From IMG/VR virus record IMGVR_UViG_3300032241_000833, positions 1-34,911 of that record: 34,911 bases of DNA; one strand, written 5' to 3'. The notes beneath the pieces are model-generated. The model ran no database searches. It was given only the letters and a program-made list of their open reading frames with translations, and had not been told where the DNA came from. This DNA comes from a virus. Below, piece after piece: positions 1 to 29,106 of this stretch; positions within the stretch are counted from its first letter, which is position 1, and each line of letters starts with the position of its first letter. The position numbers were made by a program, and so were the translations under genes.

Positions 1-652
1 TCAATGAGAACTGATCTTCGTCTGAGTTAGGAGTTGATGTAATAATTGCCTTACCACCTGTAGCCAGTGTAGGTGAGATAGAGGTCCAAAATTCTGTGGC
101 AATATTAGGTTCGACGAACGCAAACTCGTCAGCATATAGTAATGACAAAGACATACCACGACCAGTTGTTTCAGTTGTTGTCTGTGCTACAATACGCGAC
201 CCGTTATCAAATTCAATACTGTGTTTGTTATAACTTGTAACACCACAGCGAATAATATCGGGACATAGTTCGTACGCATAACGCACACGACCCATAATTT
301 CCATAGCACCTGATCCCTTATGCGCGGCAACAAGTATAGTGCTGTCTGGTACAAACATAGCAAACCATAGCAAATATCCTGCGGCTGTTGTTGTCTTACC
401 TGTTTGTCGAGGTAGCAAATTAACATTTAATCTGTGATCGTGATAACTGTCAATCAACCTGCGCTGATAGTCATAAGGAACATATTTCAACTTGCCTTTG
501 GTAGGGTGTTGAATGTAAAAGAAATTGTCTAAAAAATAATGAGGGCCAATTTTAGGATCCTGGCATTTCAGCAGGTGTTCGATATCCTCCTCAGAAAATT
601 TCTGAGTTGTGTGTGCTTTCTTAATTAAATTACCGTCTAATATTTTTGCCAT
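1..652 (-). CDS. 17: Terminase large subunit gp17, N-terminal ATPase part (3' end outside window)
   Basis: This is the packaging motor ATPase, which translocates DNA into the prohead and cuts the concatemer. Only the first 217 codons are inside the window and the frame stays open to the left edge. Residues 79-89 carry the Walker A loop (LLPRQTGKTTT, as SRQLGKTT in T4 gp17). Residues 108-113 resemble the T4 'LAHKGS' stretch. Residues 171-176 (LLYADE) are Walker B with the catalytic Glu, and residues 205-208 (TSTP) are the coupling motif. The nuclease domain is not in view. Walker A lies about 80 residues earlier than in T4 gp17, so the N-terminal region is shorter. The ATG at 650-652 is the natural start: it lies just behind a terminator and has no Shine-Dalgarno sequence, but a late-promoter-like box ends five bases upstream. 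Two genes separate it from gp16, unlike T4. Confidence 0.95.
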   Translation of the reverse strand, partial: MAKILDGNLIKKAHTTQKFSEEDIEHLLKCQDPKIGPHYFLDNFFYIQHPTKGKLKYVPYDYQRRLIDSYHDHRLNVNLLPRQTGKTTTAAGYLLWFAMFVPDSTILVAAHKGSGAMEIMGRVRYAYELCPDIIRCGVTSYNKHSIEFDNGSRIVAQTTTETTGRGMSLSLLYADEFAFVEPNIATEFWTSISPTLATGGKAIITSTPNSDEDQFSL

Positions 653-657
653 ATTAT

Positions 658-664
658 TATTTAC
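658..664 (-). promoter_or_regulatory. Late-promoter-like box GTAAATA for gp17, predicted leaderless
   Basis: On the minus strand the sequence reads GTAAATA, then five bases (ATAAT), then the gp17 ATG. T4 late promoters (TATAAATA, about -13 to -6) start transcription about six bases past the box, which here is the A of ATG. There is no Shine-Dalgarno sequence. The box lies immediately downstream of a strong terminator, so gp17 needs its own promoter in these few bases. The box is an inexact match to the T4 consensus. Confidence 0.5.
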
Positions 665-4042: not shown

Positions 4043-5764
4043 TTAGGCAAAATCTGTATAGTCAGAAGAATCACTGCCACTATCGGCATATTGTGTTTCG
4101 TTCGAATCTTGATTATCTTGGTCTTCTATTGAACTTATTTCTGGATCTGGTTCACCATCTTCTGGAGGAAGATCAGGAGGATCAGTTGCTTCTACTTCAT
4201 CTTCTGATTGTGCATTATCATCAAGTTGTTTCTGAACCAAGTATGTGTTTTGTGCATCGGCTACCGCGGCTTCTGCCGCTCCTATTTGGTCAGCAAGAGA
4301 CTCGGGACTTGTGTATCCTGACGAATCCATCTTACCCATTATAGAATCAATTTCTGCTTGATCTCCGGCTGCTTTTGCGGCCGCTAGTTCTGCATCATAT
4401 TGTTGTTGAGCCAGTTCTGCATCTGCTTTTTGTTTTTGTAAGGCATCAAGTTTAGCCTGTTGCTCTGCAACGTATGCCTGAGCATCGGCTAATGATCCTG
4501 TACCACTGCCACCTAATAAACTTCTTGTTGTTGCACCACCGGCAGTAACATTATTAAGCAATCTGTTTACTCCGCCGGAACCGGCAGTTGTGTTTCCATT
4601 AGTAGAAGAATTACCGCCTAAGAAATTGTTAAACACCTTACCTAATCCTCCTGCAGATCCTGCAACAACATTAGACAAATTAGAAGTTATTCCCGGTATA
4701 CCGCTTGTACTAAGTCCCTTACCAGATGCTAGATTTCCTAATAAACCACCAGCAATACTATATGCTTCTGCTCCTAAACTTGCTTTACTAACATTTTTTA
4801 GATTATTGGCCAAATTTACAACACCTCTGGCTAACTGTAACGGGTTCAAACTTTTTGCACTCAACGGGTCATCTGTTGAGCCACCTAACGGATACGCAAA
4901 CTCTGCTCCGCCATTTTGGCCTCCCATTAATTCAGTAACACCTGCTACAATACCCCCAGGACCTAAAATACTGTTGTTTCCGCTACCAAGAATACTAAGT
5001 GGACTAGGTTCTTGATCATAATGTATTGTAGCAAAACCTGCAGGGTTGTTTCCTTTATCTACACGACCAGTAGCATACTGAACCATTTCGTATGCGACTG
5101 TCATTTTATTTTCTAGTAATTTACTTTCTGCCTGATTCATTGTATCGTGAGCCCAATCTGTTATGATAGGATTAATAATACTGAATGCTGTAAACTGTGC
5201 TCTATTAAGTTGAAATATTTCTATACTATCAAAAAATGGTGCTGGAGTTTTAATTCCATTGTTTAGACCATAACTAAATGCATCAGTTGGTTCTGCCACT
5301 GAGTACGGTGTGTCCATATATTTTGAAGGCGGTAACGGTCTGTTTAATTGTGTATTATCTATGTCATCTGCAAAATAATATCTATAATATGCTTCCCATA
5401 ATGCAGTTGATGTATTATTATGGTCATCATGAAATGTCATCGAAATCGGTTGATATTCTATTTTACTTTGAACATACGCTTTTCTGTTGTATTGATTTAA
5501 TACTTCTGTAGCCATTCTAAATTTAGGAAGTTCAGTTTGTTTAACTAACATTCCTATAGTCTGGCCATTGGTATTAACAAATTGCTCTACCAATGGAACT
5601 TTCCTTGCATTTTGACTAATATTGATTACAACATAGTATAAGAATCCAATCTTAGGAACATACTTGTAATAGTCGTCTAGATACAATCTAGAGGCGTGAG
5701 CGTAACTCTTTAATTGATAAGGAGAATTAAAAACTTGTCCGAGAAAATTGTCAAATATACCCAT
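4043..5764 (-). CDS. Baseplate / tail-tube-initiator-like protein (gp48/gp54 type)
   Basis: Residues 1-250 look like a tail-tube-type beta domain: 'FLYYVVINIS', 'GMLVKQTELPKFRMATEVLNQYNRK', 'YQPISMTFHDD', 'LWEAYYRYYF', 'FFDSIEIFQLNRAQF', 'INPIITDWAHDTMNQ' and 'MTVAYEMVQYATG'. Tube-like baseplate proteins (T4 gp48 and gp54) use this scheme of a long beta-sheet core with a 'P-x-F-x-x-E-x-x-NQYN' loop. Residues 255-420 are Gly/Ser/Asn-rich linker. Residues 425-510 are an Ala/Gln/Lys coiled coil. Residues 520-573 are a strongly acidic tail ending in DSSDYTDFA. At 573 residues it is far longer than gp54 (320) or gp48 (364). It follows gp19 and shares an operon with the unknown gene and gp4. The ATG lies 13 bases from the upstream terminator stem and has no Shine-Dalgarno sequence. 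The exact T4 counterpart is uncertain. Confidence 0.6.
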   Translation of the reverse strand: MGIFDNFLGQVFNSPYQLKSYAHASRLYLDDYYKYVPKIGFLYYVVINISQNARKVPLVEQFVNTNGQTIGMLVKQTELPKFRMATEVLNQYNRKAYVQSKIEYQPISMTFHDDHNNTSTALWEAYYRYYFADDIDNTQLNRPLPPSKYMDTPYSVAEPTDAFSYGLNNGIKTPAPFFDSIEIFQLNRAQFTAFSIINPIITDWAHDTMNQAESKLLENKMTVAYEMVQYATGRVDKGNNPAGFATIHYDQEPSPLSILGSGNNSILGPGGIVAGVTELMGGQNGGAEFAYPLGGSTDDPLSAKSLNPLQLARGVVNLANNLKNVSKASLGAEAYSIAGGLLGNLASGKGLSTSGIPGITSNLSNVVAGSAGGLGKVFNNFLGGNSSTNGNTTAGSGGVNRLLNNVTAGGATTRSLLGGSGTGSLADAQAYVAEQQAKLDALQKQKADAELAQQQYDAELAAAKAAGDQAEIDSIMGKMDSSGYTSPESLADQIGAAEAAVADAQNTYLVQKQLDDNAQSEDEVEATDPPDLPPEDGEPDPEISSIEDQDNQDSNETQYADSGSDSSDYTDFA

Positions 5765-5769
5765 ACGAA

Positions 5770-5776
5770 TATTTAG
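5770..5776 (-). promoter_or_regulatory. Late-promoter-like box CTAAATA, predicted leaderless start
   Basis: The minus strand reads CTAAATA, TTCGT, ATG: the box ends exactly five bases before the start codon at 5764. The box abuts the terminator stem behind gp19, so the promoter for this gene can only lie in these bases. No Shine-Dalgarno sequence is present. CTAAATA-type boxes also precede gp13 and gp18. Confidence 0.55.
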
Positions 5777-5777
5777 T

Positions 5778-5812
5778 CGTAAAAAAAGGCCTGGATTACA
5801 GGCCTTTTTACG
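5778..5812 (-). terminator. Rho-independent terminator after gp19
   Basis: The arms GGCCTG (5788-5793) and CAGGCC (5798-5803) flank a 5-base loop (GATTA on the plus strand) and are extended by A/T tracts and CGT/ACG ends. On the minus strand the stem is followed by a run of T. It lies ten bases past the gp19 stop codon and directly before the promoter of the next gene. Confidence 0.88.
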
Positions 5813-5822
5813 AAGTTATATA

Positions 5823-6476
5823 TTAACCTCCAGTGCCACTTGAACCAGTTGCACTGTCTTGAGCAATACTTCTTCCGACATTTGCTCCTAATCCTACAGG
5901 GTTGCCACTCTTATCTACTTGGATTGCATTATCAAATTCAATTGTTAATGCAATTTCCATCGGTGTGCTTTCAGCGTATGCTAATTCATTGTAGTTAACT
6001 GTTTGTAGGTAACAACCAACACATTCCCATGTTTCTAAAACTCCAGCATCAAATGCACCGTTGCCACCGTCTAACATTTCAATTCTTGTTAAGAATTTAT
6101 AATCAGCGCCAGCATAAGCACTTGCTTGTTCGAAGAAATCAAATTGTTTCTGTAATTGTTCGCCAACTACTTTTGTAACATTACCGCCGACATCATCTCT
6201 AACTGAAATTGCTAGCGATTGCCATGTTGGTTTACCAGCGTATTTAATTTGACTGTTGTACACATGGATAATTTGGTTTTCAAACTGAACCTGTGGACGA
6301 GCCGCAGTAACTACTTGCTTCGTTAATTCGGTAACAGGTTTAGTAATTCCAAAATTTTCTAATGTTACTCTAAAACGATATTTTAATTTTGGCATCAACA
6401 AACCTTGAACGGTTGATGATTGTCCGCCACCCGCTCCCGGTACTGTATATCTGCTTAAACTTGATAGTGCCGCCAT
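5823..6476 (-). CDS. 19: Tail tube protein gp19
   Basis: The inner tube of the contractile tail is built of stacked gp19 hexamers. The 217 residues fit the family, although T4 gp19 has 163. Core features: 'LKYRFRVTLENFG' (residues 31-43) as the first strand; 'ARPQVQFENQIIHVYN' as the loop-strand that precedes 'YAGKPTWQSLAISVRDD'; 'QKQFDFFEQA' helix; 'TRIEMLDG'; 'LETWECVGCYLQTVNYNELAYAESTPMEIALTIEFDNAI', which matches the T4 end 'GLWPTNVGELQLDWDSNNEIQTFEVTLALDYW'. The last 30 residues are a Gly/Ser-rich extension absent from T4. The start has a strong AAGGAG Shine-Dalgarno sequence. It follows gp18 by 23 bases and is followed by a terminator, so gp18-gp19 form a transcription unit. Confidence 0.93.
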   Translation of the reverse strand: MAALSSLSRYTVPGAGGGQSSTVQGLLMPKLKYRFRVTLENFGITKPVTELTKQVVTAARPQVQFENQIIHVYNSQIKYAGKPTWQSLAISVRDDVGGNVTKVVGEQLQKQFDFFEQASAYAGADYKFLTRIEMLDGGNGAFDAGVLETWECVGCYLQTVNYNELAYAESTPMEIALTIEFDNAIQVDKSGNPVGLGANVGRSIAQDSATGSSGTGG

Positions 6477-6499: not shown

Positions 6500-9400
6500 T
6501 TATAGTCCTGCCTTGATTGCGCCTGTGTTCTTTATACGCAATGGGATGTAGATAAATTCCACTGCCTTAATTGGCTCAATAGCGATATCCAACCAAAGTT
6601 CAGAACGATCGATTCTCGTTGGAGTGTTATTGCTTTCATCACAGACAACTGCGAAGTCGTTCAATGCTCTTTTGTTTACTAATTCTAGTAAGAAACTCTG
6701 TGCCGCACCTTTGATCTCGTTACGTGTAACTTTATCATTAGGTTCAAACAAGAATGGTTTCGCAAGAATTGCTAATTGTCGACGCATGTAACATACTAAA
6801 CGTGCTACATTAATTCTGTCTAATGCACTAGCATTTCTAGCACGAGTGTACTGGCCGAAGTTAACAATTCCTGCACCCGATAAAGTTGCAATAGGATTAA
6901 TCTTAACACCTGCTAATACATCTCTTAAACTGTTTGGTAGAGTAGTGCTCTTGAATTCGCCGTCTAGGATGTAACCAACTGCTGTAGCATTGTCAACACC
7001 ACCGCGTCTTGTTCCTGCTGGAGCAAACCATTCGTAACTCTTTTGATCGCTTACTGCAATTGTACGTAGCATCATATGACTTGGAGGAACAACAATGTAG
7101 TTGCCTGTGTTGTCATTTGTGTAACCACTTGGGTAGAACATAGCCATGTACTCGTCATAACTTACTCCACCGGTGTCATTATTGTCAAATGCACCGTTAG
7201 TGTTGTTACCCCAAGCCGCTAAATCAGTACCTGTTGGTTGTAAGCGGAATGGTGTGTCACCGACTACGAACGCAGTCTGTCCACGATCAACGTTAAATGC
7301 AATCATATTTTGAATTGCTTCAGGATAACCTGGGCAAGCAATTAAGTTGAATATAACAGAGTCTGTATCACGGATTGCTTGGTTAGTGTCTATTTGTGCT
7401 TTCATACCAGCAACAACAAATCCTCGTTGTGCATGGCGTCCAAATGCTCCACTGCCGTCTGCATTATTAGGACTTACAGAAATCCAACGATCTGCATTAT
7501 ATGTCAATCCGCCGTTAGCACCGTTCATAACTTCGTTACCATAACGTGCATTTTCGCCATTATTAGAATTAATGTTGATGTAACTTGTTACATACTTCTT
7601 AACATTAAAACCAGAACGACGTAGATTCCATAGTCTCATACCTTTTGGATATAGTGCAGGATCTGGTGCATCTGGGTCTAGATAGTTACTGCTTAGTAGA
7701 TCAACAATTGATGCTGGATCTACATCAGTTCCCATTGTACCCCAACGTGCATCAGCAAATAACCAACCAGTCGGAGTTGTTTGATCTGTAGGATCTTGTG
7801 CTACCCATTTAAGGTTAGAGCCGTCCCACACATAAATGTTTTGACCGTAACTATCGACGTCTGATGTATCAATCCAAATATCGCCATTTACTAATGGAGT
7901 ACCGTCACTTTGTGTAGTTGGTGCTACTGCGGCTACTAATGGCCCCATTGGATCTGATGTTGGGAATGCTGTTGAATCTTTATATCCAACCCATGTTGTA
8001 CCATTATTGTATAATACATCAACTTCGTCAACTACTGAACTATACCACAATGTACCATTTGCTGGATTTGTGTATGGAATTTCGGAAGTTGGCTCGTATA
8101 CCAATGGTTTCCATGTACTTGCGTAGTATTGATATCCGTCATTTTCGTACTCACCGGCGGAATAGAAGTTTTGTGTTCCACTCTCAGTTCCGTCAGTTGC
8201 ACGAGACCACGGAGTTAATTGCAAATAAGATGCTAACGGAGTATGAGTGCCATCTAAGAATTTAATTTCGCCACCTGCTGAGTGCTGAACTGTTAAACTT
8301 GTTGCGTTTCCGCTAGAATCATATGATGCCGCACTTGCTGAAACATAAGTTAATCCTGCGTTGTTAATATGAGAAATAACTGTGTCCATTGTATCGCCAT
8401 TGCTTAAACTAATTGTTACACCAGAACTATAATCTGCAACACCACCTGTTAATGTGCCTAGTCCTTCAATAATGTTAAATTGTGAAGAAGTAGTTACAGT
8501 TAAACTTGTTACAGTTGATGTAACCTGTGTTGGACCGGTTGTTGTTCTGCGGAAGATGTCAAATTCTGCGTATTGTGTATTATCTGATGCAGTACTCCAT
8601 GCACCTGTACCTTTGTCATAATTTACTTCAACATAAATTGATCCTGTTGCAGGACTAGCAATTGTGTTAATAGCAGTTTGTCCGTCCGGATAAACTGGAG
8701 CACTTACACTTGTAAATGCGGCAGTAGCGGCACTATAAACTTTAACTGCCCAGTTAGCACCTGAATTAGGAACTGTTGTTTTGACATAAACAGAACCTGT
8801 TGGATTTGTACTAAAATCTGGATATTTGGTATGTGGCCCTTGGAATAGTGCAGGAGCCGCATTTGATCCTGCTGTAAATCCCATTGCTAGTACCATAGCA
8901 TTTCCGCCAGTACCAGTACCTTGGATATTAATGCCGCCGTCTGGTGTTGTACCATTAGATTTTGCAGAGCCGTCGGCATAAATTTCTAGATAACCACTTG
9001 AATTAACTTTGGCATTAAATCCGTGAGTGTATCCGACTGTGTTAATTGAACTTGCTAAAGCAATAAAAGTAGTTCCACTTAATGTAATAGTCTGACCATT
9101 AATAACAAATGTCTGACCATTGTAAGCAGTCATATTTTGATTAGCCTTAGTACTTGTAACTACTGGCCATGAACTTTGCCATGCGCTAGATTTCCATGTA
9201 GAAGATGCACTAAAGTTTTCTTCAACATTGCTACCAATTTGTACCCAATTACCGTCTTTATTTTTATACCAGTAATGCACTTCTGTTGTTAGTGCAACAA
9301 CAGCATAAGAACCGTTAGTACCAAAACTTGCCTTTGGTGTAAAGTTATCAGAAGTGGCAGTTGCTAAATTTGTATTGTCGATTACTAAAGGAACTTTGTT

Positions 9401-9871
9401 TGTAAATGCCTTGTTAGTATTGCTCCATTCAAAAATACCCCATTTAGTATTTGAAGTATCTAACCAGTATGTTCCATCTACTGGATCACCTTCTGGTCTA
9501 GAAGATTGAGGCAATAATGAACCTAAATCTAAGTCAGCGCGGACAACATAGGCTCTTGAACTAACACCTAGTAAACTATATGCGGCTTGTAATCCGTATT
9601 CGTTCAATTCTCCACCGTTGATTGGATTGCCACTTGCATCTGTGTAGAACAGTGGAGTTCCAAATGTGTCTGTTAAATCACGTTGGCTAGTGATTAGATA
9701 TACTTTACCAGCATTTGACGGAATAGTACCTTGAGCAGTACCAGTTCCACTTGCATTTTCTTTATTACTCGCACTCGCTACGAATATCATAGGAGTCGTC
9801 GACGGAGCCGCTGGTAGGTAAAAACTCTCGTCTATAACTTGTACTTGTACGCCTGGTGAATTTAGAGCCAT
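6500..9871 (-). CDS. 18: Tail sheath protein gp18, with a large inserted region
   Basis: The contractile sheath protein. Residues 1-120 are the N-terminal part ('SPGVQVQVIDES', 'AAYSLLGVSSRAYVVRADLD'). Residues from about 702 to the end are the conserved core and C-terminal handshake part ('MRLWNLRRSGFNVKKY', 'IACPGYPEAIQNMI', 'APAGTRRGGVDNA', 'GIVNFGQYTRA', 'RINVARLVCYMRRQL', 'AVEFIYIPLRI'). Between them about 580 residues are inserted, giving 1123 in total against 659 in T4. The insertion has Trp-containing modules (133-150, 604-630, 662-690) and two units resembling flagellar-cap-type beta-alpha folds (250-335 and 480-550). A GGGAG Shine-Dalgarno sequence eight bases before the ATG supports the start, and a CTAAATA box lies further upstream. 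It is the first gene of the gp18-gp19 unit. Confidence 0.95.
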   Translation of the reverse strand: MALNSPGVQVQVIDESFYLPAAPSTTPMIFVASASNKENASGTGTAQGTIPSNAGKVYLITSQRDLTDTFGTPLFYTDASGNPINGGELNEYGLQAAYSLLGVSSRAYVVRADLDLGSLLPQSSRPEGDPVDGTYWLDTSNTKWGIFEWSNTNKAFTNKVPLVIDNTNLATATSDNFTPKASFGTNGSYAVVALTTEVHYWYKNKDGNWVQIGSNVEENFSASSTWKSSAWQSSWPVVTSTKANQNMTAYNGQTFVINGQTITLSGTTFIALASSINTVGYTHGFNAKVNSSGYLEIYADGSAKSNGTTPDGGINIQGTGTGGNAMVLAMGFTAGSNAAPALFQGPHTKYPDFSTNPTGSVYVKTTVPNSGANWAVKVYSAATAAFTSVSAPVYPDGQTAINTIASPATGSIYVEVNYDKGTGAWSTASDNTQYAEFDIFRRTTTGPTQVTSTVTSLTVTTSSQFNIIEGLGTLTGGVADYSSGVTISLSNGDTMDTVISHINNAGLTYVSASAASYDSSGNATSLTVQHSAGGEIKFLDGTHTPLASYLQLTPWSRATDGTESGTQNFYSAGEYENDGYQYYASTWKPLVYEPTSEIPYTNPANGTLWYSSVVDEVDVLYNNGTTWVGYKDSTAFPTSDPMGPLVAAVAPTTQSDGTPLVNGDIWIDTSDVDSYGQNIYVWDGSNLKWVAQDPTDQTTPTGWLFADARWGTMGTDVDPASIVDLLSSNYLDPDAPDPALYPKGMRLWNLRRSGFNVKKYVTSYININSNNGENARYGNEVMNGANGGLTYNADRWISVSPNNADGSGAFGRHAQRGFVVAGMKAQIDTNQAIRDTDSVIFNLIACPGYPEAIQNMIAFNVDRGQTAFVVGDTPFRLQPTGTDLAAWGNNTNGAFDNNDTGGVSYDEYMAMFYPSGYTNDNTGNYIVVPPSHMMLRTIAVSDQKSYEWFAPAGTRRGGVDNATAVGYILDGEFKSTTLPNSLRDVLAGVKINPIATLSGAGIVNFGQYTRARNASALDRINVARLVCYMRRQLAILAKPFLFEPNDKVTRNEIKGAAQSFLLELVNKRALNDFAVVCDESNNTPTRIDRSELWLDIAIEPIKAVEFIYIPLRIKNTGAIKAGL

Positions 9872-9904: not shown

Positions 9905-9911
9905 TATTTAG
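9905..9911 (-). promoter_or_regulatory. Late-promoter-like box CTAAATA for gp18
   Basis: On the minus strand CTAAATATT lies 33 bases before the gp18 ATG. Predicted initiation near 9899 gives a leader of about 28 bases that contains the GGGAG ribosome binding site. This is the conventional arrangement, in contrast to the boxes five bases from an ATG elsewhere in the window. Confidence 0.5.
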
Positions 9912-9934
9912 CGGATATGGGTGAAAAACACCGG

Positions 9935-10951: not shown

Positions 10952-11710
10952 TTATCCTATCACAAAAGTCAATGGTTGTTGGTTATCTTTGTTGTTAATT
11001 AGATCTTGTTCTAACATATCTAATTCTGCTTTACCCTCGCTCTTTAGTGAAGCACCATTTAATTGTGTGCCACCTTGTGGGCTGGCAATGGTAGCAAACT
11101 TTTCACGAGCTTCGCCGAGAATAATTTTGGCGGCCGCTGTAGCATAATCTCTAATCCAAATTCCTGCCCATGTATCTTGGAACAAGATAAAATCTGGTTT
11201 ATAGTTATACATCCAAAGTAAAACGTTTTCTTCACCGCGTGGACGTTGTGTAATTCTTAACTTTTTGGTGACTGAATTCCAGTCAAAGTTAATGAATGAG
11301 CCAAACATTTTACCAACAAGATTTTGGTATTGTGAAAACATCATGTATGTTGCTAAACCGCCCATGTTAGAACTGCTTAACAAATATGTGTTTGAATAGG
11401 CCAAGTTAAACGGTTCAAATAATGTACCGCCGTCACCTCCGCCCGATCTTGAACCAATGCTACGACGGAAGATCTGTCTAACCTGCATAACTTCCGGCGC
11501 TAACTGATATTCGTTAACATCTGTCTGTAGTGTTAGATATCCAAAACTTTCTTCTACAGAATTTTGACTGCGTTGTCTGTACTTACGCAGGGCTTTATCT
11601 ATAGCAAGATCGTAATGCTTAGGATCCAGCTCAACATCAATCATACCGTCACCTAGAGAGGTTTTGATATAATCAACCACTTTTTGTTTTTCGGATTCAG
11701 TTTCGTTCAT
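10952..11710 (-). CDS. 13: Neck protein gp13
   Basis: gp13 forms the head-tail connector collar with gp14 after packaging. The 252 residues begin with a helical segment (residues 8-48) and then a beta-rich core ('FGYLTLQTDVNEYQLAPEVMQVRQIFR'). The C-terminal half carries the conserved features: 'TKKLRITQRPRGEENVLLWMYNYKPD' followed by 'WAGIWIRDYATAAAKIILGEAREKFATI', then 'GGTQLNGASLKSEGKAELDMLEQDL', the typical end of gp13 in T4-like phages of aquatic bacteria. T4 gp13 has 309 residues. The ATG at 11710 has no Shine-Dalgarno sequence; a CTAAATA box ends five bases upstream. It diverges from gp14 with only 28 bases between the two start codons. In T4 these genes are co-directional. Confidence 0.85.
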   Translation of the reverse strand: MNETESEKQKVVDYIKTSLGDGMIDVELDPKHYDLAIDKALRKYRQRSQNSVEESFGYLTLQTDVNEYQLAPEVMQVRQIFRRSIGSRSGGGDGGTLFEPFNLAYSNTYLLSSSNMGGLATYMMFSQYQNLVGKMFGSFINFDWNSVTKKLRITQRPRGEENVLLWMYNYKPDFILFQDTWAGIWIRDYATAAAKIILGEAREKFATIASPQGGTQLNGASLKSEGKAELDMLEQDLINNKDNQQPLTFVIG

Positions 11711-11715
11711 ACCAA

Positions 11716-11722
11716 TATTTAG
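11716..11722 (-). promoter_or_regulatory. Late-promoter-like box CTAAATA for gp13, predicted leaderless
   Basis: The minus strand reads CTAAATA, TTGGT, ATG. Box and spacer nearly repeat the arrangement before the baseplate-like gene (CTAAATA, TTCGT, ATG). Predicted +1 is the A of the start codon. The box is one base away from the oppositely directed gp14 box. Confidence 0.55.
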
Positions 11723-11723
11723 C

Positions 11724-11731
11724 CATAAATA
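11724..11731 (+). promoter_or_regulatory. Late-promoter-like box CATAAATA for gp14
   Basis: CATAAATA differs from the T4 late consensus at its first base only. It is followed by TACTACT and the ATG at 11739, so the expected transcript has two or fewer leader bases. There is no Shine-Dalgarno sequence. The 7-base spacer also precedes the gene at 2123-2740, and both spacers end in TACT. Confidence 0.55.
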
Positions 11732-11738
11732 TACTACT

Positions 11739-12971
11739 ATGCCAAGACTATCTATGTATCGTCCCGAAAAGGGAAATGATTTTCGCTTTCTAGATCGTGT
11801 AATTAACGAAGAATTCCAAGTGGGCGGAGTTGATGTTTACATCCACAAATATACAGGTCCCGTAGATCCTGCTACAGGTGATGCTACCCCGTCAACTCCT
11901 AATGCAAGTTCGGCGGGAGTTTTAGGAATTCAAGATGTTCTGTTTATGGAAAACAGAGATAGAAATTACGATCCTGATGTATATATAACTCGCGGAATTT
12001 ATACAATGCAGGACATAGATTTTAACTTGATGCAATTTGGTTTTTTTCTATCCAATGACAATGTTATGATTACTTTCCATCTACGTAATATTGTAGAAAC
12101 TCTAGGTCGTAAATTAATGGTCGGAGACGTATTAGAATTACCACACTTAAAAGATGAATACAGTTTAACAGATACCATGATGGCATTGCGAAAGTTTTAT
12201 GTTGTGTCGGAAATATCTCGTGCCGCAACAGGATACAGCCAAACTTGGTATCCTCATTTACTGCGTGCTAAATGTGAGCCAATGGTTAACGCTCAAGAAT
12301 TTGCGCAGATCCTTAATCAAGAAGTATCTGCTGATCCTAATGCAGGAATCCCAACCGGAGTACCAGAGGGAACTACATTGGCAGATATATTTTCAATGTA
12401 TAATCAAAATATTTCTATTAACAATCAAAATATTGCGCAGGCAGAACTCGATGCTCCGTTAAGTGGGTACGATACTGATCAATTTTATGTGTTACCAGTT
12501 CGAGATGATCATTCATTAGATTTGCAAGATGCGAGTGACGAAGAAAGAGATGCTAGTGAAGACGATCATACTGTTGATGCTAGTTCTGTATTTGTAAATC
12601 CTGATAAAACTGTTTATGTAGGATACTTAACAGATGACGGAATACCTGCAAATGGTGCTCCTTATTCATCAGGTGTTGATTTTCCTTCTAATCCTTATAA
12701 AGGTGCATTCTGTTTAAGGATAGATTACATGCCTAACAGATTGTTTAAGTTTGATGGAAAAAATTGGGTATTCCAAGAAACAAATGTTCGAATGACAATG
12801 ACCAATACTCCAACTGATAGTAAACCTGCAGATAATTCTGTTACAAGACAAACAGAAGTAACAGGATTTGTTAATAACAATACAACATCGACTATCAATG
12901 GTAAAGTTATACCAGAACGCCAGTCATTAAGTAAAGCGTTAAAAACTAACAAACCAAAGGCAGATAATTAA
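11739..12971 (+). CDS. 14: Neck protein gp14, with extended C terminus
   Basis: The gp14 collar protein acts in head-tail joining. Recognisable parts: 'DFRFLDRVINEEFQVGGVDVYIHKY' (residues 14-38), 'SAGVLGIQDVLFMENRDR' with the following 'DVYITRGIYTMQDIDFNLMQFGF' (59-102), 'MITFHLRNIVETLGRKLMVGDVLELPHL' (110-137) and 'LRKFYVVSEISRAATGYSQTWYPHLLRAKCEP' (150-181). This is the layout of gp14 in T4-like phages. Length is 410 residues against 256 in T4. The extra C-terminal region contains an acidic stretch (255-282) and, at 314-346, a module with FPSNPY and FDGKNW that resembles the N terminus of the fibre at 23276-29095. The start has no Shine-Dalgarno sequence. It overlaps gp15 by one base (TAATG). 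Confidence 0.88.
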   Translation: MPRLSMYRPEKGNDFRFLDRVINEEFQVGGVDVYIHKYTGPVDPATGDATPSTPNASSAGVLGIQDVLFMENRDRNYDPDVYITRGIYTMQDIDFNLMQFGFFLSNDNVMITFHLRNIVETLGRKLMVGDVLELPHLKDEYSLTDTMMALRKFYVVSEISRAATGYSQTWYPHLLRAKCEPMVNAQEFAQILNQEVSADPNAGIPTGVPEGTTLADIFSMYNQNISINNQNIAQAELDAPLSGYDTDQFYVLPVRDDHSLDLQDASDEERDASEDDHTVDASSVFVNPDKTVYVGYLTDDGIPANGAPYSSGVDFPSNPYKGAFCLRIDYMPNRLFKFDGKNWVFQETNVRMTMTNTPTDSKPADNSVTRQTEVTGFVNNNTTSTINGKVIPERQSLSKALKTNKPKADN

Positions 12972-15189: not shown

Positions 15190-15528
15190 TTAACCACCTG
15201 AATTTGTGCCGGTTGATATACCGCCGGTAGGATCTGATGTAAAATGTTGTGTAAATGTATTAGGTATTAATGAACGTTCTACTGCTGGAACATTTACCCA
15301 AACTTTAACCCAATCAATAAGTTGATCTTTAGTAACTGATTCATAAGGAACAAAAGTGTCAGGGTCGAGATTATTAATATTGAGATCTTGAACTCCACTC
15401 ATTGATTTTGTATTTGTACCGTCATCTGCTGTACAAGTCCAAACTACACGACTAACAACATTAGTATTAGTGTTGTATTCAGAAATTACGTCAATAGATT
15501 GAATGTCCCATGTGTAAGTAATAGCCAT
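15190..15528 (-). CDS. Small tail-region protein, paralogue family member B
   Basis: 112 residues: 'AITYTWDIQSIDVI', 'NVVSRVVWTCTADDGT', then the signature 'LDPDTFVPYESVTKDQLIDWV' at about residues 54-74. The C terminus is Gly/Thr/Ser-rich and lacks the 'LPRPW' ending of member A. The closest similarity in the window is to member A and, more weakly, to the protein at 15837-16253. AGGGA lies upstream of the ATG. A late-promoter-like AATAAATA inside an inverted repeat lies 21 bases before the start. The function is unknown. A fibre-associated or decoration protein fits the position, but this is inference. Confidence 0.75.
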   Translation of the reverse strand: MAITYTWDIQSIDVISEYNTNTNVVSRVVWTCTADDGTNTKSMSGVQDLNINNLDPDTFVPYESVTKDQLIDWVKVWVNVPAVERSLIPNTFTQHFTSDPTGGISTGTNSGG

Positions 15529-15539
15529 TTTTGTTCCCT

Positions 15540-15567
15540 GTCAATGTATTATTTATTTCGCATTGAC
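15540..15567 (-). repeat. Inverted repeat around a late-promoter-like box
   Basis: Perfect 7-base arms GTCAATG (15540-15546) and CATTGAC (15561-15567) enclose 14 bases that contain AATAAATA on the minus strand (15550-15557). The box includes the stop codon of the gene at 15553-15786. There is no T run, so a terminator is unlikely; an operator or a promoter-proximal hairpin is possible. Confidence 0.5.
15550..15557 (-). promoter_or_regulatory. Late-promoter-like box AATAAATA before gene 15190-15528
   Basis: AATAAATA on the minus strand, overlapping the TAA stop of the upstream gene. Predicted initiation leaves a leader of about 16 bases containing AGGGA before the ATG at 15528. Confidence 0.45.
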
Positions 15568-15786
15568 GTTAATGCCGTCGGGCCTAACAGTTGCTCCGGG
15601 TTGTTGTGCTGATTGAAGTTGTTGGATCTGTGCAGATGCCTGAGCTCTAACTTTTTCAACTACTGGGGCAGAAGTTTCATAAGGTAATTTTACTAAACCC
15701 ATAATAATAACATTAACTTCGTCAATAGATAAGTTTGTTAAATTAATTGTAGGTTGTTCTTGTCCGTTTGGTTGTGTTGGTTGCAT
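15553..15786 (-). CDS. Small protein of the fibre cluster, unknown function
   Basis: 77 residues. Residues 14-60 (INLTNLSIDEVNVIIMGLVKLPYETSAPVVEKVRAQASAQIQQLQ) form two or three predicted helices with the pattern 'L(S/T)xxEVNxIxxxLxxLPYE', which I recall in short proteins near tail genes of aquatic phages. The rest is Gln/Pro-rich and probably disordered. It has the best expression signals in the window: an exact TATAAATA box (15806-15813) and AGGAG seven bases before the ATG. This suggests a highly expressed late protein despite its size, perhaps a capsid or tail accessory subunit. That role is inference. Confidence 0.75.
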   Translation of the reverse strand: MQPTQPNGQEQPTINLTNLSIDEVNVIIMGLVKLPYETSAPVVEKVRAQASAQIQQLQSAQQPGATVRPDGINVNAK

Positions 15787-15805: not shown

Positions 15806-15813
15806 TATTTATA
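15806..15813 (-). promoter_or_regulatory. Exact T4-type late promoter TATAAATA
   Basis: TATAAATA on the minus strand, identical to the T4 late promoter core, followed by ACTCA and a 14-15 base leader with AGGAG. It drives the 77-residue gene and those after it. It is the reference example for the other, more degenerate boxes in the window. Confidence 0.8.
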
Positions 15814-23275: not shown

Positions 23276-26200
23276 TCAGTTTGTAACCTCGCTTGTTTGG
23301 ACATTTGCAACAAACCTTATAGTATTTGCTCCGTCCCCCTTACCTTGAATGATTAAACCGCCGTTTGATGAATCGGCTATAACCTGGCAATCCCAAGCCG
23401 AAACACTTGCCCAAATTTTTGTCTTGTTAACAACACGAAGTATTGTAGTTCCAGCGCCATTATATCGGCTAATTACACCGTCAAATTGCCAAGCACCTTC
23501 ATCTGAACTGGTTACTGACCTTGCACTTACTAACATAGTAAACGCATACGTTGAATTATCGGGCATTATCAGTTGATTAACTGTTACAGGACTACTATTA
23601 TCTGTAGTCAAATTAGTAAATGCAGACCCGGTAATTGATCTTCTCAATACATATATGCCTGCTTGCGCATCTCCTGGTGTAGCAAATGATCCGTTTGCAA
23701 ATATTTTAGAACCAACAACACCTCTAGTCGAAGCGCCGCTACCTGCGGTTACATCGTTGCCATTAATAAATGTATTTCCAGCAATGCCAACACCACCACT
23801 AACAACTAATGCTCCATTAGATGATCCAGTAGATACAGTAGTTGCCTGTACATAAGTGTTACCACCAATATGTGCGTTACCGCTGATACCAGCACCACCT
23901 GCTACTACTAGTGCGCCTGATCCTGTATCTAAACTTTCTGTCTTACTCTTAGCAAACAAGTTACCTGACAAATCTATAGATACTGCTATTGTACCAGTTG
24001 TTGGTGTACCTCTGCTGGTTATTGTAGCATTTGTTGAGAAGTTCAATCCACCGGATGAAAATACTGTGTTATAACTAGCACCTGCTGTCCATAATCCAAC
24101 ACCTTGTCCGAGATTGTTTGTTGTAATTTGTAATACTTGAGTACCACTAACGCCTTCATTGTAAATGCCGCCAGTTGTAGGCAAGTAAATTGTAGCGTTT
24201 GATCCAGCAATTACAGCACTAGTCGCAGTCAATGCACCACTAATAAACACATTACCGCCAATACCTGCGCCACCTGTAACTACTAATGCACCTGTTAATG
24301 AACTAATTGAATTATTTGAGTTCTGTGTAACTATTCTACCAGCGAAATAAGCATCACTACCAACACCTAAACCACCAACTACTTGCAATGCTCCGCTTGT
24401 TGGAGATATAGCATTAGTCGAGTTAAGAATTGTTATTATTTGATGAGTTGAACTTCCTCTGCTTGTAATGCTATCAAATGTAGAAGTATTCCAAATTGTA
24501 ATAACACCAGACGATGTGCTAACTGCTGTATCAGTACCTGCGACAATATTAGCAACATAACCTCCACCACCTCCACCACCACCGCCGGTAAGAACATTTT
24601 GTCCGTTAACGGTTAAGTTACCTGCTACATTGACATTACCGCCGACACCAACTCCTCCTGCAACAATCAGGTCTCCGGTAAATGTACTCGTAGATTGTGT
24701 TCCACCAACTAATGTTAACCCGCCAAATTTTGCAAGTCCAAATGTTCCTGTGTTGGCAAAACTTGGAGTGTATGTTTCTGTGCCACCAGGGTAAACATTA
24801 GTCTTATAGACCAATACCTGTGTAGCATTATCCATACCTAAGAAGGAATGGTTATCATATGTTGTATCTGCGGTAGAAGTTGTACTGTAATGTAAAATCA
24901 ATCCACGATCATACCCGTCATTAACTGATAATGCTGTATTTCCAACAGCACCGCCTAGTTCTATAACAGGATCAACAATATAAGTCTGTGTTGAATTTAC
25001 AAATGTCTGAGTACCAAATACCTGTAAGTTTCCATAAATGGCTGTATTGCCGCCAACAACTAAATTTTTGCTAATGCCAACACCGCCGCTAACAATCAAA
25101 GTTGCGTATGTGCTAGAAGTGGCGTCTTGACCATTATTAAGTGTAATGATTCTATCACTAATAGCGCCACGTGACGTAACACTTTCTAATGTGCTATTGT
25201 CCCAAACAGTAATATTTCCGGTTGATGTACTAACAACTGTATCAGTGCCGGCTGTTATACTTAATACACCAGTATTGTTGATGCTAAATGTAGCAGTTGT
25301 CCCTGTTGAACTTATAATTGTTACATTAGTTCCTGTACCAGCAGTCGGTAACACAGTAGTAACAACTCGTTGACCTCTGTCATATACGCCTTGTCCTGAA
25401 TAAATTGAACCGTTAACACCCAATCCGCCAGCAATAGTTACAGCACCGCTTAGTGGGGATGTAGCGGCTACAATACTTGTAAATGTTGCTGTACCGTTTA
25501 CAACTAATGTTCCGGTGTTTAGTATAGCCCCAGTTACGATAGCAGAGGATGTTTCTGTTCCACCAATAAACACAGAACCGCCAATACCAACGCCACCTAT
25601 TACAGTTAATGCACCTGTAGTTGTAGATGTGGCAGTCACATATGACCAAATGCCAATAGCATTAGTTGTAGTACTACCATTGTCTGTTACATTTTGTAAA
25701 GTAGCAATGCTTGTGATGTTTACTTGCCCAACACCACTCGAAGGACTAATAGAAATACCAGTACCTGTGGTAATTTTTGTAACACCGTATGATCCAATTG
25801 ACGATGTTGTTAGTACCTGTGCACCACCAGAGTAGACACTTGCTCCGTATATGCTACCAAATACATTTAACTGCCCTGATGGTAGTAAATCCATTAATAC
25901 TGTTGAAGTTGTTCCAGTCTGATATTGTCTCCATTCAAAAGATATTCCAGAACTGGTATTTAAATTTACAAAATCTACCTCGTTAGTTAGTCCACTAAGA
26001 TTTGTATTAATTCCTGCGTATGTGTTTACCAATAATCCATTATTAATAAATCCACCATTGCCGACATTTAATGATCCACCAATTCCAACACCGCCGGCAA
26101 CAACTAATGCACCTGAACTTGTTCCAGTTGAAATTGTAGAAGTATTAACTAATATAACGTTTGTTGTTGAGTTTCCTCTACCAGACACTGACTGTAATGT

Positions 26201-29095
26201 AGAAGTATCTGATACAACAACTATACCAGTTGTGGTGTTGACACTAATATCTGTGCCGGCTTGAACTTGAGTAACAACATATAGTACAGCCGTTTCTCGA
26301 GTAATTACTCTAGAATTATGATCGTATACAGCACCTGCGTAAATGTTTCCACTAACTCCCAGCCCGCCGTTAACAATAACAGAACCTGTATTAACTGCTG
26401 TACTTTCAACATTAGCATTGAAGTATACAGTTGAACTTGTGGCATTGCCTCGACCGGTTACAGTTGCTAAAGTAGAAGTATTCCATACTGTAACAACACC
26501 GGTATTTGTGTTTACTGCTGTGTCAGTACCTGCATATAATGCCGTTAAACCTTGCTGTCCTAATGTACCCTGGGTAATAACAGGGCTACCATTAGAATAT
26601 ATATTCTGCGCATAGATATTGCCTTGTATACCAGCACCACCTGTGACTACCAATGCACCTGTTGTGGTACTATAGGCCTGAGCAGTGCTATAGATATAGG
26701 TAGTAGCAGTTGTTAGTTGTAATCTAGGAGAATTGTCAATTAATAATGATGTAATACTACCGGTAGTTAATAATTTAAATCTAGAAATTAAACTACCATC
26801 TTGGAAATTTAAAACAAATGCAGGATGGAATGACGGTGCACCTGTTGAAGTATTTGTGTCTGTAATTGTAACTGTTGGATAATTACCAGTTAACGAAAGA
26901 TCTGCACCAGCAAAAATATTACCAAATAAATTTAAATCACCGCCGGCGCCTATTCCTCCGCCTACAACGAGTGCACCTGATGTTGTACTAATTGAAGTTG
27001 TAGTATTAACTAAAGTCAATCCGCCAAAAATAGCAGATCCATAATTGCCTAAATTTAAAAATCCGCTTGTACTTGGTAAGAATGGAACTCCTTGTAACAC
27101 ATTTGTCTTAAACATCAGTGTCTGTGTGGCATTGTCCATACCAAAGAACGCATTATTTGTGTAAGATATATTAGAAGTTGCTGTAGTACTGTAATGGAAA
27201 ACAATACCTCTGTCATATCCGTCGTTGGCTAAAATAGAGGTACCGTCTTTTCCGCCACCCAATTCTATGATTGGATCGGTAACATAAGATATTGTAGAAT
27301 CAATGTATGTTGCTGTTCCAAATACTTGTAGATTTCCAAATATTGCAGTACTTCCACCGACATTTAGATTGCCTGCAATACCAACACCGCCTGCAACAGT
27401 CAGTGCACCTTGAGTATATGTGTTACTTTGTAGTGTATTGTTGAATGCAATAACTTGATTTGTATAACTTCCACGTTGTGTGATGCTATCAAATGTACTT
27501 GTATTCCATACAATAACATCACCAGTTGCGGTGCTTACTACAGTATCTGTGCCTGCTCTTAACGAAGTTACTCCAAACGATCCAAGACTTGCTTGAGTAA
27601 TAACTCGACTACCTTGATCGTATATAGCATAACCATATAAATTGCCGCCAATACCAACACCACCGGCAATGATAACAGCGCCTGTTGTTGTAGAAATTGA
27701 TACCGCAGTACTTGAAACTGTAGTTGTACTTCCTACTAAGTTTATGTTAAAGCCGTTTGATCCAATCTGTACTAACGCATTTGGATTAATATTAACAGCA
27801 CCGTAACCTCCATTGCCGATAGACATACTGTTATCGCCACCGAGTATTAAATTACTACTTGGCAATAACGAAATATATGCGCTGTTGTTTCCAGCAAATA
27901 AATTACTCGAGTATAATGTACCGCCAATACCTACACCGCCTGCAATTGTTAGTGCACCGGAAGATGTACCAGTAGATGATGTTGTACTGTAAACATTTGA
28001 TTGAGGTAGTTGTAATACATTATTAAATGTAGTAATTGTTAAACCACCGATATCGATAGTACTTGAACTAATATATAATGTTCCCCATCGTTGGGTAGGA
28101 GATCCTAAATTATAATGTCCGTTAGACTGGGGTAAAATATTCCCCATAGTAGATGTACTATTAACATTCAAATTATAAGAAGTTAATAAACTGGCTGTTA
28201 CAGTGGTAGCATTTACAGTAACTGCATTTACTGAAACAACTGCTGTTACGGTATTCGCATTTATAGTTCCGCCAACATAAACATCTTGTCCAATACCAAC
28301 ACCACCGGCAACTACAATAGCGCCTGAATTTGTACTTGTAGAATTTACATTGTCAGTCGATGTAAAGATTGCGTTAACAATAAATGTATTAACTGATAAA
28401 TCTCTTACATAGCCAGTACCGGCAATAATATTTTCAACAGATGCTGTGTTATTAACGTATAAATTACCACCAACACCTATACCACCAGCAACTCGTAATG
28501 CACCCGAACTTGTACTATTCGATTGCGTTATGTTAGAAATTAATATTGTGTTAGTAGTTGAATTACCTCTGTCAGTTACTGTTTGTAGTGTGCTGGTATT
28601 CCATATAGTTACAGCACCTGTACTTGAACTAATTGCCGTATCAGTTCCAGCAGTTAAACTTGTAACTCCGTAATTTCCTAGTGTTTGTAGTGTAACAACA
28701 CGACTGCCTTGGTCAAATAATGAAGAAGCATACAATGCTCCTTGAATTCCAACACCACCAACTACGGTTAATGCCCCAGTTGTAGTGCTTGTTGAAGTAG
28801 CCGTTCCTAAAATGCTTACAACATTAGTAATTGTGAGATTATGATCTCCGTAGATATCACCACCAACATATAAATCTTCACCAATGCCAGCGCCCCCATA
28901 TACAATTAGACCGCCGCTGTTTGTACTTGTAGAATTAGTAGATGTAGTAACAATTACTCGATTGGCCGTTAACGGATCAAAACTTGTAATGCCGCTTTGA
29001 ATCTGCCAACCATTTCCGTTCCATATCCAGGTACGGTTACCGATTGTATAGGTTTGACCTACATATGGATTTGAGGGAAAGTTTAAATTAGCCAT
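23276..29095 (-). CDS. Giant repeat-built tail fibre / adhesin (19 GG-repeats)
   Basis: 1939 residues. The N terminus (NLNFPSNPYVGQTYTIGNRTWIWNGNGW) is a small Trp-containing module. The body holds 19 copies of a unit like GALVVAGGVGIGGNLYVGG. About seven copies of a second unit (AGTDTAVSTxTGVVTVWNTSTL ... TVTxRG) alternate with them. Two copies of a longer module contain 'YVTDPIIELGGG ... DGYDRG ... FHYSTT ... GMDNATQ', at about 27000-27370 and 24700-25060. A phrase 'Y(D/N)xGSRV(I/V)' often ends a repeat. The last about 150 residues (GDAQAGIYVLRR ... NTIRFVANVQTSEV) form a separate C-terminal beta domain that I recall from aquatic phage fibres. No enzyme motif is seen. The ATG lies 11 bases after the preceding stop, without Shine-Dalgarno. 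Probably a host-binding or whisker-like component. Confidence 0.85.
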   Translation of the reverse strand: MANLNFPSNPYVGQTYTIGNRTWIWNGNGWQIQSGITSFDPLTANRVIVTTSTNSTSTNSGGLIVYGGAGIGEDLYVGGDIYGDHNLTITNVVSILGTATSTSTTTGALTVVGGVGIQGALYASSLFDQGSRVVTLQTLGNYGVTSLTAGTDTAISSSTGAVTIWNTSTLQTVTDRGNSTTNTILISNITQSNSTSSGALRVAGGIGVGGNLYVNNTASVENIIAGTGYVRDLSVNTFIVNAIFTSTDNVNSTSTNSGAIVVAGGVGIGQDVYVGGTINANTVTAVVSVNAVTVNATTVTASLLTSYNLNVNSTSTMGNILPQSNGHYNLGSPTQRWGTLYISSSTIDIGGLTITTFNNVLQLPQSNVYSTTSSTGTSSGALTIAGGVGIGGTLYSSNLFAGNNSAYISLLPSSNLILGGDNSMSIGNGGYGAVNINPNALVQIGSNGFNINLVGSTTTVSSTAVSISTTTGAVIIAGGVGIGGNLYGYAIYDQGSRVITQASLGSFGVTSLRAGTDTVVSTATGDVIVWNTSTFDSITQRGSYTNQVIAFNNTLQSNTYTQGALTVAGGVGIAGNLNVGGSTAIFGNLQVFGTATYIDSTISYVTDPIIELGGGKDGTSILANDGYDRGIVFHYSTTATSNISYTNNAFFGMDNATQTLMFKTNVLQGVPFLPSTSGFLNLGNYGSAIFGGLTLVNTTTSISTTSGALVVGGGIGAGGDLNLFGNIFAGADLSLTGNYPTVTITDTNTSTGAPSFHPAFVLNFQDGSLISRFKLLTTGSITSLLIDNSPRLQLTTATTYIYSTAQAYSTTTGALVVTGGAGIQGNIYAQNIYSNGSPVITQGTLGQQGLTALYAGTDTAVNTNTGVVTVWNTSTLATVTGRGNATSSTVYFNANVESTAVNTGSVIVNGGLGVSGNIYAGAVYDHNSRVITRETAVLYVVTQVQAGTDISVNTTTGIVVVSDTSTLQSVSGRGNSTTNVILVNTSTISTGTSSGALVVAGGVGIGGSLNVGNGGFINNGLLVNTYAGINTNLSGLTNEVDFVNLNTSSGISFEWRQYQTGTTSTVLMDLLPSGQLNVFGSIYGASVYSGGAQVLTTSSIGSYGVTKITTGTGISISPSSGVGQVNITSIATLQNVTDNGSTTTNAIGIWSYVTATSTTTGALTVIGGVGIGGSVFIGGTETSSAIVTGAILNTGTLVVNGTATFTSIVAATSPLSGAVTIAGGLGVNGSIYSGQGVYDRGQRVVTTVLPTAGTGTNVTIISSTGTTATFSINNTGVLSITAGTDTVVSTSTGNITVWDNSTLESVTSRGAISDRIITLNNGQDATSSTYATLIVSGGVGISKNLVVGGNTAIYGNLQVFGTQTFVNSTQTYIVDPVIELGGAVGNTALSVNDGYDRGLILHYSTTSTADTTYDNHSFLGMDNATQVLVYKTNVYPGGTETYTPSFANTGTFGLAKFGGLTLVGGTQSTSTFTGDLIVAGGVGVGGNVNVAGNLTVNGQNVLTGGGGGGGGGYVANIVAGTDTAVSTSSGVITIWNTSTFDSITSRGSSTHQIITILNSTNAISPTSGALQVVGGLGVGSDAYFAGRIVTQNSNNSISSLTGALVVTGGAGIGGNVFISGALTATSAVIAGSNATIYLPTTGGIYNEGVSGTQVLQITTNNLGQGVGLWTAGASYNTVFSSGGLNFSTNATITSRGTPTTGTIAVSIDLSGNLFAKSKTESLDTGSGALVVAGGAGISGNAHIGGNTYVQATTVSTGSSNGALVVSGGVGIAGNTFINGNDVTAGSGASTRGVVGSKIFANGSFATPGDAQAGIYVLRRSITGSAFTNLTTDNSSPVTVNQLIMPDNSTYAFTMLVSARSVTSSDEGAWQFDGVISRYNGAGTTILRVVNKTKIWASVSAWDCQVIADSSNGGLIIQGKGDGANTIRFVANVQTSEVTN

Positions 29096-29106
29096 ATCTT
29101 ATTTAA

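Follow-up and report, generated by a model that had tools for sequence, protein, structure and literature searches.

The virus record IMGVR_UViG_3300032241_000833 (IMG/VR type), analysed here in its entire length of 34,911 bases (the window), carries a gene for the large terminase subunit (terL, gp17-like) whose start codon directly follows a terminator and a late-promoter-like box. Where does the message of this gene begin, and how is its start codon found? The evidence below points to transcription of terL from its own T4-type late promoter into a leaderless message, as one case of a genome-wide class of genes in a group of jumbo phages. For this reading, which is drawn from sequence comparison, we estimate a probability of about 0.83. 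A preliminary description of the record had noticed the arrangement at terL alone. It is found genome-wide.

The terL gene lies on the minus strand and runs off the window end (1-652). Its product, 217 residues up to that end, matches the PHROG terminase large subunit with an E value of 2.6e-51. On this strand the junction consists of the hairpin AAATAGGCTCTTCGGAGCCTATTT (671-694), the intrinsic terminator of the upstream unit, followed by its T-run (to 667), CAGTAAATA, ATAAT and the terL ATG. The late-type -10 box AGTAAATA occupies 665-658, the five-base spacer with T at -1 was read at 657-653, and the start codon is at 652-650. The preliminary description had placed a late-promoter-like box exactly five bases before the gp17 start, and this holds: GTAAATAATAATATG occurs once in the record, at 650-664 on the minus strand. 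The box matches the T4 box TATAAATA at six of eight positions. Since it ends at -6, T4 late geometry would make the A of this start codon the +1 position. No Shine-Dalgarno (SD)-like 4-mer was seen by eye at -16 to -5 of the ATG, in agreement with the earlier claim that an SD sequence is missing. The terminator, described before as strong and close to the start, is indeed strong (-13.9 kcal/mol, z -4.47, as good in 0 of 200 shuffles), but the T-run ends 14 bases ahead of the ATG and not about 12.

We compared this junction in the best 80 of 596 relatives. TAAATA precedes the ATG by five bases in 75 of the 80 and by four in 4, so that the core is kept at one of these distances in 79/80, while T(-13) and A(-12) of the T4 box are mostly lost. 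The start codon is ATG in 80/80, and an SD-like motif was detected in 0/80. A hairpin with a T-run lies 12-19 bases ahead of the ATG in 78 of the 79 relatives with sufficient upstream sequence (L017 had too little and was left out). Seventy-four rows with distance 5 had 24 bases upstream and represent 62 distinct junctions. These contain 38 different spacer sequences. Thus, the length of the spacer is conserved whereas its sequence is free. The base at -1 is nevertheless T or C in 62/62. Viral contigs scanned for TATTTTTTTCAGTAAATA with ATGG 2-12 bases behind it gave a similar picture: among the 80 matches listed, the distance was 5 in 69, 4 in 8 and 6 in 2, and one was without a long open reading frame (ORF); several of these contigs overlap with the terL relatives. 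The fixed distance without an SD sequence in relatives supports the leaderless start that had been proposed, with +1 at the A as the geometry would have it. The supposed T4-like kinship has to be corrected. In a collection of cultured phages TerL is closest to that of PA5oct-type jumbo phages (61%), and not to that of T4 itself.

The same arrangement was searched in eight large relatives and the window, together 1119 ORFs (longest ATG-initiated ORF, minimum 80 amino acids, overlaps removed; G002 taken to base 220,000). Summed over the eight relatives, TAAATA-N5-ATG occurs 92 times and the reversed pattern 24 times. TAAATA lies 4, 5, 6 or 7 bases before the start in 23, 67, 12 and 18 genes, in total 120/1119 ORFs. 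It lies at 8-16 bases in 15 ORFs and at 17-25 bases in 80. As a control, the opposite-strand motif TATTTA was counted and found only four times at distances 4-7. The two peaks persisted when each of the 503 families was represented by a single randomly drawn member: averaged over 200 draws, 37 boxes fell at 4-7 bases, 4 at 8-16 and 32 at 17-25. In most recurring leaderless-type families the distance varies among homologues, always within 4-7. A terminator hairpin within 75 bases was found for 20/120 leaderless-type genes, compared with 5/152 and 8/836 in the other classes. The content of the class is largely structural. About 120 of the 1119 ORFs would belong to it, among them those for a gp13-like neck protein, a baseplate wedge protein, a tail-tube-like protein and several virion proteins.

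The SD motifs separate the two groups of genes. Only 4 of the 120 genes with a box at 4-7 have an SD-like motif, in all four upstream of the box and hence outside the predicted message. In contrast, SD-like motifs precede 55 of the 80 genes with a box at 17-25 and 112 of the 152 genes of the whole 17-45 class; a distant control window contained them in 76/1108. Because the distances are bimodal and the SD motif goes with the long-distance class, one and the same box appears to serve two gene classes, leaderless or SD-led. Sheath and tail tube genes would belong to the latter, with SD-containing leaders. The gap at 8-16 is the range where the leader is too short for an SD sequence. That SD motifs set in 5-6 bases past the box was dropped as independent evidence, as it is partly a product of this gap. 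At distance 5 the start codons are 74 ATG, 1 GTG, 0 TTG and 0 CTG, a weak test since non-ATG starts of leadered genes were uncounted.

The bases next to the start codon bear on how exactly the transcript start would coincide with it. The promoters might be real and initiate 1-3 bases ahead of the ATG, leaving a stub leader, which is mechanistically close to a leaderless message. Distances 4, 6 and 7 (23, 12 and 18 genes) would suit such stubs, and at distance 7 an A at -3 in 16/18 and a T at -4 in 14/18 could be the mark of a 3-base leader, with many of the 18 genes coming from one homologous family. The mode of the distribution, however, is at 5 (67/120), and there -1 is T or C in 65/67 genes, versus 600/1119 ORFs overall, which fits initiation at the A of the ATG. 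We regard stub leaders as unlikely, at long but not extreme odds. The -1 pyrimidine seems confined to the leaderless class, because leadered promoters show no fixed initiator. In 113 such promoters the expected pyrimidine-purine step was not seen five and six bases past the box (frequency 0.32 at bases 5-6, 0.39 at 4-5 and 0.35 at 7-8), and a global initiator test was accordingly dropped as support for +1.

Divergent genes bear on the question whether these boxes act as promoters at all. In the window, 28 bp separate the start codons of a neck protein gene (head-tail adaptor Ad2, T4 gp13 homologue; 10952-11710, minus strand) and of a gene for a virion structural protein (phrog_11591; 11739-12971, plus strand). 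They are occupied by two back-to-back boxes, GCTAAATA (11716-11723, minus strand, distance 5) and CATAAATA (11724-11731, plus strand, distance 7), the halves of a putative bidirectional promoter. The neck gene, with distance 5 in 9/9 sequences, is predicted to be leaderless, its partner leaderless or nearly so. The nine sequences contain 11 divergent leaderless-type pairs, each with 28 or 29 bp. A further 31 neck loci were found and 30 were used, one being without a start. The neck gene box is at distance 5 in 30/30. At three of these loci the sequence was too short for the partner ORF to be tested; at the other 27 a divergent partner starts 27-29 bp away, with distance 7 in 27/27. The gap between the two boxes varies from 3 to 5 bases, and the box-ATG distances remain constant at 5 and 7.

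Alternatively, read-through of the terminator could produce a long message on which terL is translated by coupling to an upstream gene, with the AT-rich box being incidental. A same-strand ORF lies within 30 bases upstream of 45/120 leaderless-type genes, where coupling would be possible. On the other hand, 39/120 have an opposite-strand gene upstream, and the divergent pairs are without any same-strand upstream gene. An incidental box would also drift in distance, and the hairpin with its T-run is retained before terL in nearly all relatives. Read-through is thus very improbable.

If the boxes are late promoters, a gp55-like sigma would recognize them. A search with T4 gp55, which covered the eight large contigs, detected a gp55-like sigma in seven of them (E 1.8e-8 to 1.8e-7). 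It also matched Vibrio phage 2.275.O and, weakly, PA5oct. With the G001 protein as query, a gp55-like sigma was found in 11/11 isolates given. None was found in G007, a 92-kb record. The proteins (L099:8823-9731 and six homologues) align to T4 gp55 over the core. They differ from it by some 110 inserted residues close to the N terminus, and they carry an acidic tail at the end. The T4 C-terminal end, which we take to be the sliding-clamp-binding epitope, is absent in 7/7. Pfam gave no family for two of the gp55-like proteins, nor for T4 gp55, so the sigma assignment follows from the T4 protein search and the alignment. As to translation factors, IF3_C (PF00707) was found in 0/12 records and ribosomal protein S21 (PF01165) in 2/12, namely G001 (347482-347634) and PA5oct (170985-171143). 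A link between S21 and leaderlessness was not supported, since PA5oct has S21 but only one leaderless-type gene.

A-rich, SD-independent translation signals exist in Bacteroidota, and TAAATA, being AT-rich and similarly positioned, could be a signal of this kind and not a promoter. Yet genes with an SD of their own have the same box 17-45 bases upstream, and the box follows terminators and stands in back-to-back pairs where genes diverge. It also contains the T4 late core in phages encoding a gp55 homologue. We give such a translation signal very little credence. Nuclease cleavage of a longer message could likewise produce a 5'-terminal AUG, and PMC2988020 warns that primer-extension ends cannot tell initiation from processing, but what is conserved is a -10-like box whose distance is fixed and whose spacer is free, and cleavage is most improbable.

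Under the leaderless reading, the gp55-like sigma on host RNA polymerase would recognize the lone -10 box ahead of terL. Transcription would set out from the A of the start codon, or from a base no more than about 3 positions away, right after the terminator of the preceding unit. The message would be leaderless and its 5'-terminal AUG would be bound by the ribosome. A review (PMC9031893) describes leaderless initiation as 70S ribosomes attaching to an AUG at the 5' end.

Several observations weigh against this reading. Two positions of the terL box, -13 and -12, deviate from the T4 consensus. One of the 80 terL relatives, L070, is without a box, and another, L006, has no hairpin. In PA5oct (L082), Atu_ph07 (L085) and XacN1 (L089), a hairpin with T-run abuts the terL start without TAAATA at 4-7, so that these phages use either another box or another mechanism there. 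In Atu_ph07, terL is annotated as two adjoining coding sequence pieces. Within the genome-wide set, 40/152 genes of the 17-45 class are without an SD-like motif, and the -1 pyrimidine is missing as a feature of distance-4 genes (11/23). The lack of a fixed initiator in leadered promoters and the 45 genes close behind a same-strand ORF count here as well. Finally, all counts depend on the longest-ATG gene model, and homologous genes across the nine sequences are not independent.

The spread of the class was tested with the same gene model. Boxes at 4-7 were found in 0/207 ORFs of T4, 0/170 of cyanophage S-CAM1 and 1/326 of PA5oct. XacN1 has 14/472 (1 with an SD-like motif; 2 of the 14 are identical copies) and Stenotrophomonas phage RAS14 has 7/397, all at distance 5 and 1 SD-like. 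Six of the sites in the XacN1 and RAS14 records were checked, and 5/6 are annotated gene starts. Judged by this arrangement, the leaderless-type class is present in cultured phages too, and weaker there. Without the ORF filter, TAAATA-N5-ATG occurs 10 times in T4 and the reversed pattern 5 times; in the gene model used, no such ATG leads into an ORF of 80 or more amino acids.

Each part of the proposed arrangement has known counterparts. According to PMC2988020, the T4 late promoter consists of a single 8-bp element, recognized by gp55 and placed roughly one helical turn ahead of the start, and A(-13) is a known variant (nine of fifty sites listed). The group resembles T4-type late promoters (gp55, gp33, gp45) in having a lone TAAATA-core -10 box upstream of virion genes and a gp55-like sigma in relatives. 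It differs by relaxed -13 and -12 positions, and by boxes at 4-7. In leaderless genes of Deinococcus-Thermus and Actinobacteria, the -10 element lies beside the ORF, in the position of a ribosome-binding site (PMC12340547, PMC3160421). Those are cellular genes, whereas here we deal with putative phage late promoters and a parallel SD-led class on the same box. For Cluster O mycobacteriophages and for gene 90 of Adephagia, promoters have been predicted whose +1 coincides with the initial base of the start codon, a divergent pair among them (PMC4351075, PMC11373665). The Cluster O promoters are SigA-like, and each phage has a few such promoters, unlike the genome-wide class here. In mycobacterial hosts leaderless genes are common, M. 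tuberculosis being named in PMC9031893.

The leaderless mRNA of lambda, a temperate phage, comes from one gene only. It is the classical leaderless phage message (PMC9031893, PMC3160421), comparable as a leaderless message in a phage but confined to that one gene. The jumbo phage AR9 was considered as a precedent and ruled out, its leaders being 26-491 bases long (PMC5312081). In a full-text literature search, which reached few subscription papers, no description of leaderless T4-type late promoters was recognized. The combination of leaderless messages with T4-type late promoters thus appears to be new as far as the searches went, each part being known separately.

Further boxes in the window fall into both classes, all on the minus strand. 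A 573-amino-acid tail-tube-like protein (4043-5764), predicted to be leaderless, is preceded by the box ACTAAATA (5770-5777, distance 5), and 8/9 family members have a box at distance 5-6. A second terminator hairpin adjoins this box (5783-5809; -18.5 kcal/mol, z -5.91), its fold taking in bases downstream of the stem. The window also contains an ordinary, SD-led tail tube gene (5823-6476) beside this longer protein of leaderless type. The box ATTAAATA (29100-29107) lies at distance 4 ahead of the structural ORF 23276-29095. SD-led boxes are TATAAATA (15806-15813) ahead of ORF 15553-15786, AATAAATA (15550-15557) ahead of ORF 15190-15528, and that of the tail sheath gene (ORF 6500-9871; box 9905-9912, distance 33), where 9/9 family members are SD-led at distances of 30-35. 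The virion structural protein phrog_14802 (2123-2740) has the box GATAAATA (2748-2755) at distance 7. Its family is divided: 5/9 members are leaderless-type without SD, and 4/9 have a distance of 17-18, all with SD.

Box distance could set two translation modes, leaderless for some low-copy proteins (terminase, neck, a baseplate wedge protein) and SD-led for high-copy proteins (sheath, tube, major capsid), possibly with the infected cell shifting toward leaderless initiation late; the copy-number labels are those we presume from T4. The pattern of terL, the gp13-like gene and a baseplate wedge family (leaderless-type) and of sheath and tube (SD-led) agrees with this idea. Major capsid genes have SD-like motifs in 8/8, with TAAATA upstream in only 1/8. 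Against it, the portal gene (gp20) is leaderless-type in only 1/8, and gp4 and gp15 in 0/9 each. We consider the idea tentative and rather doubtful.

If the leaderless reading is true, gene calling in these phages should keep a start codon five bases past TAAATA even without an SD sequence. The group would then offer natural paired alleles, the same gene being leaderless in one phage and SD-led in another, and with them a test of the conditions under which a bare AUG suffices for a ribosome. It would also raise the question whether infection alters the preference of the ribosome.
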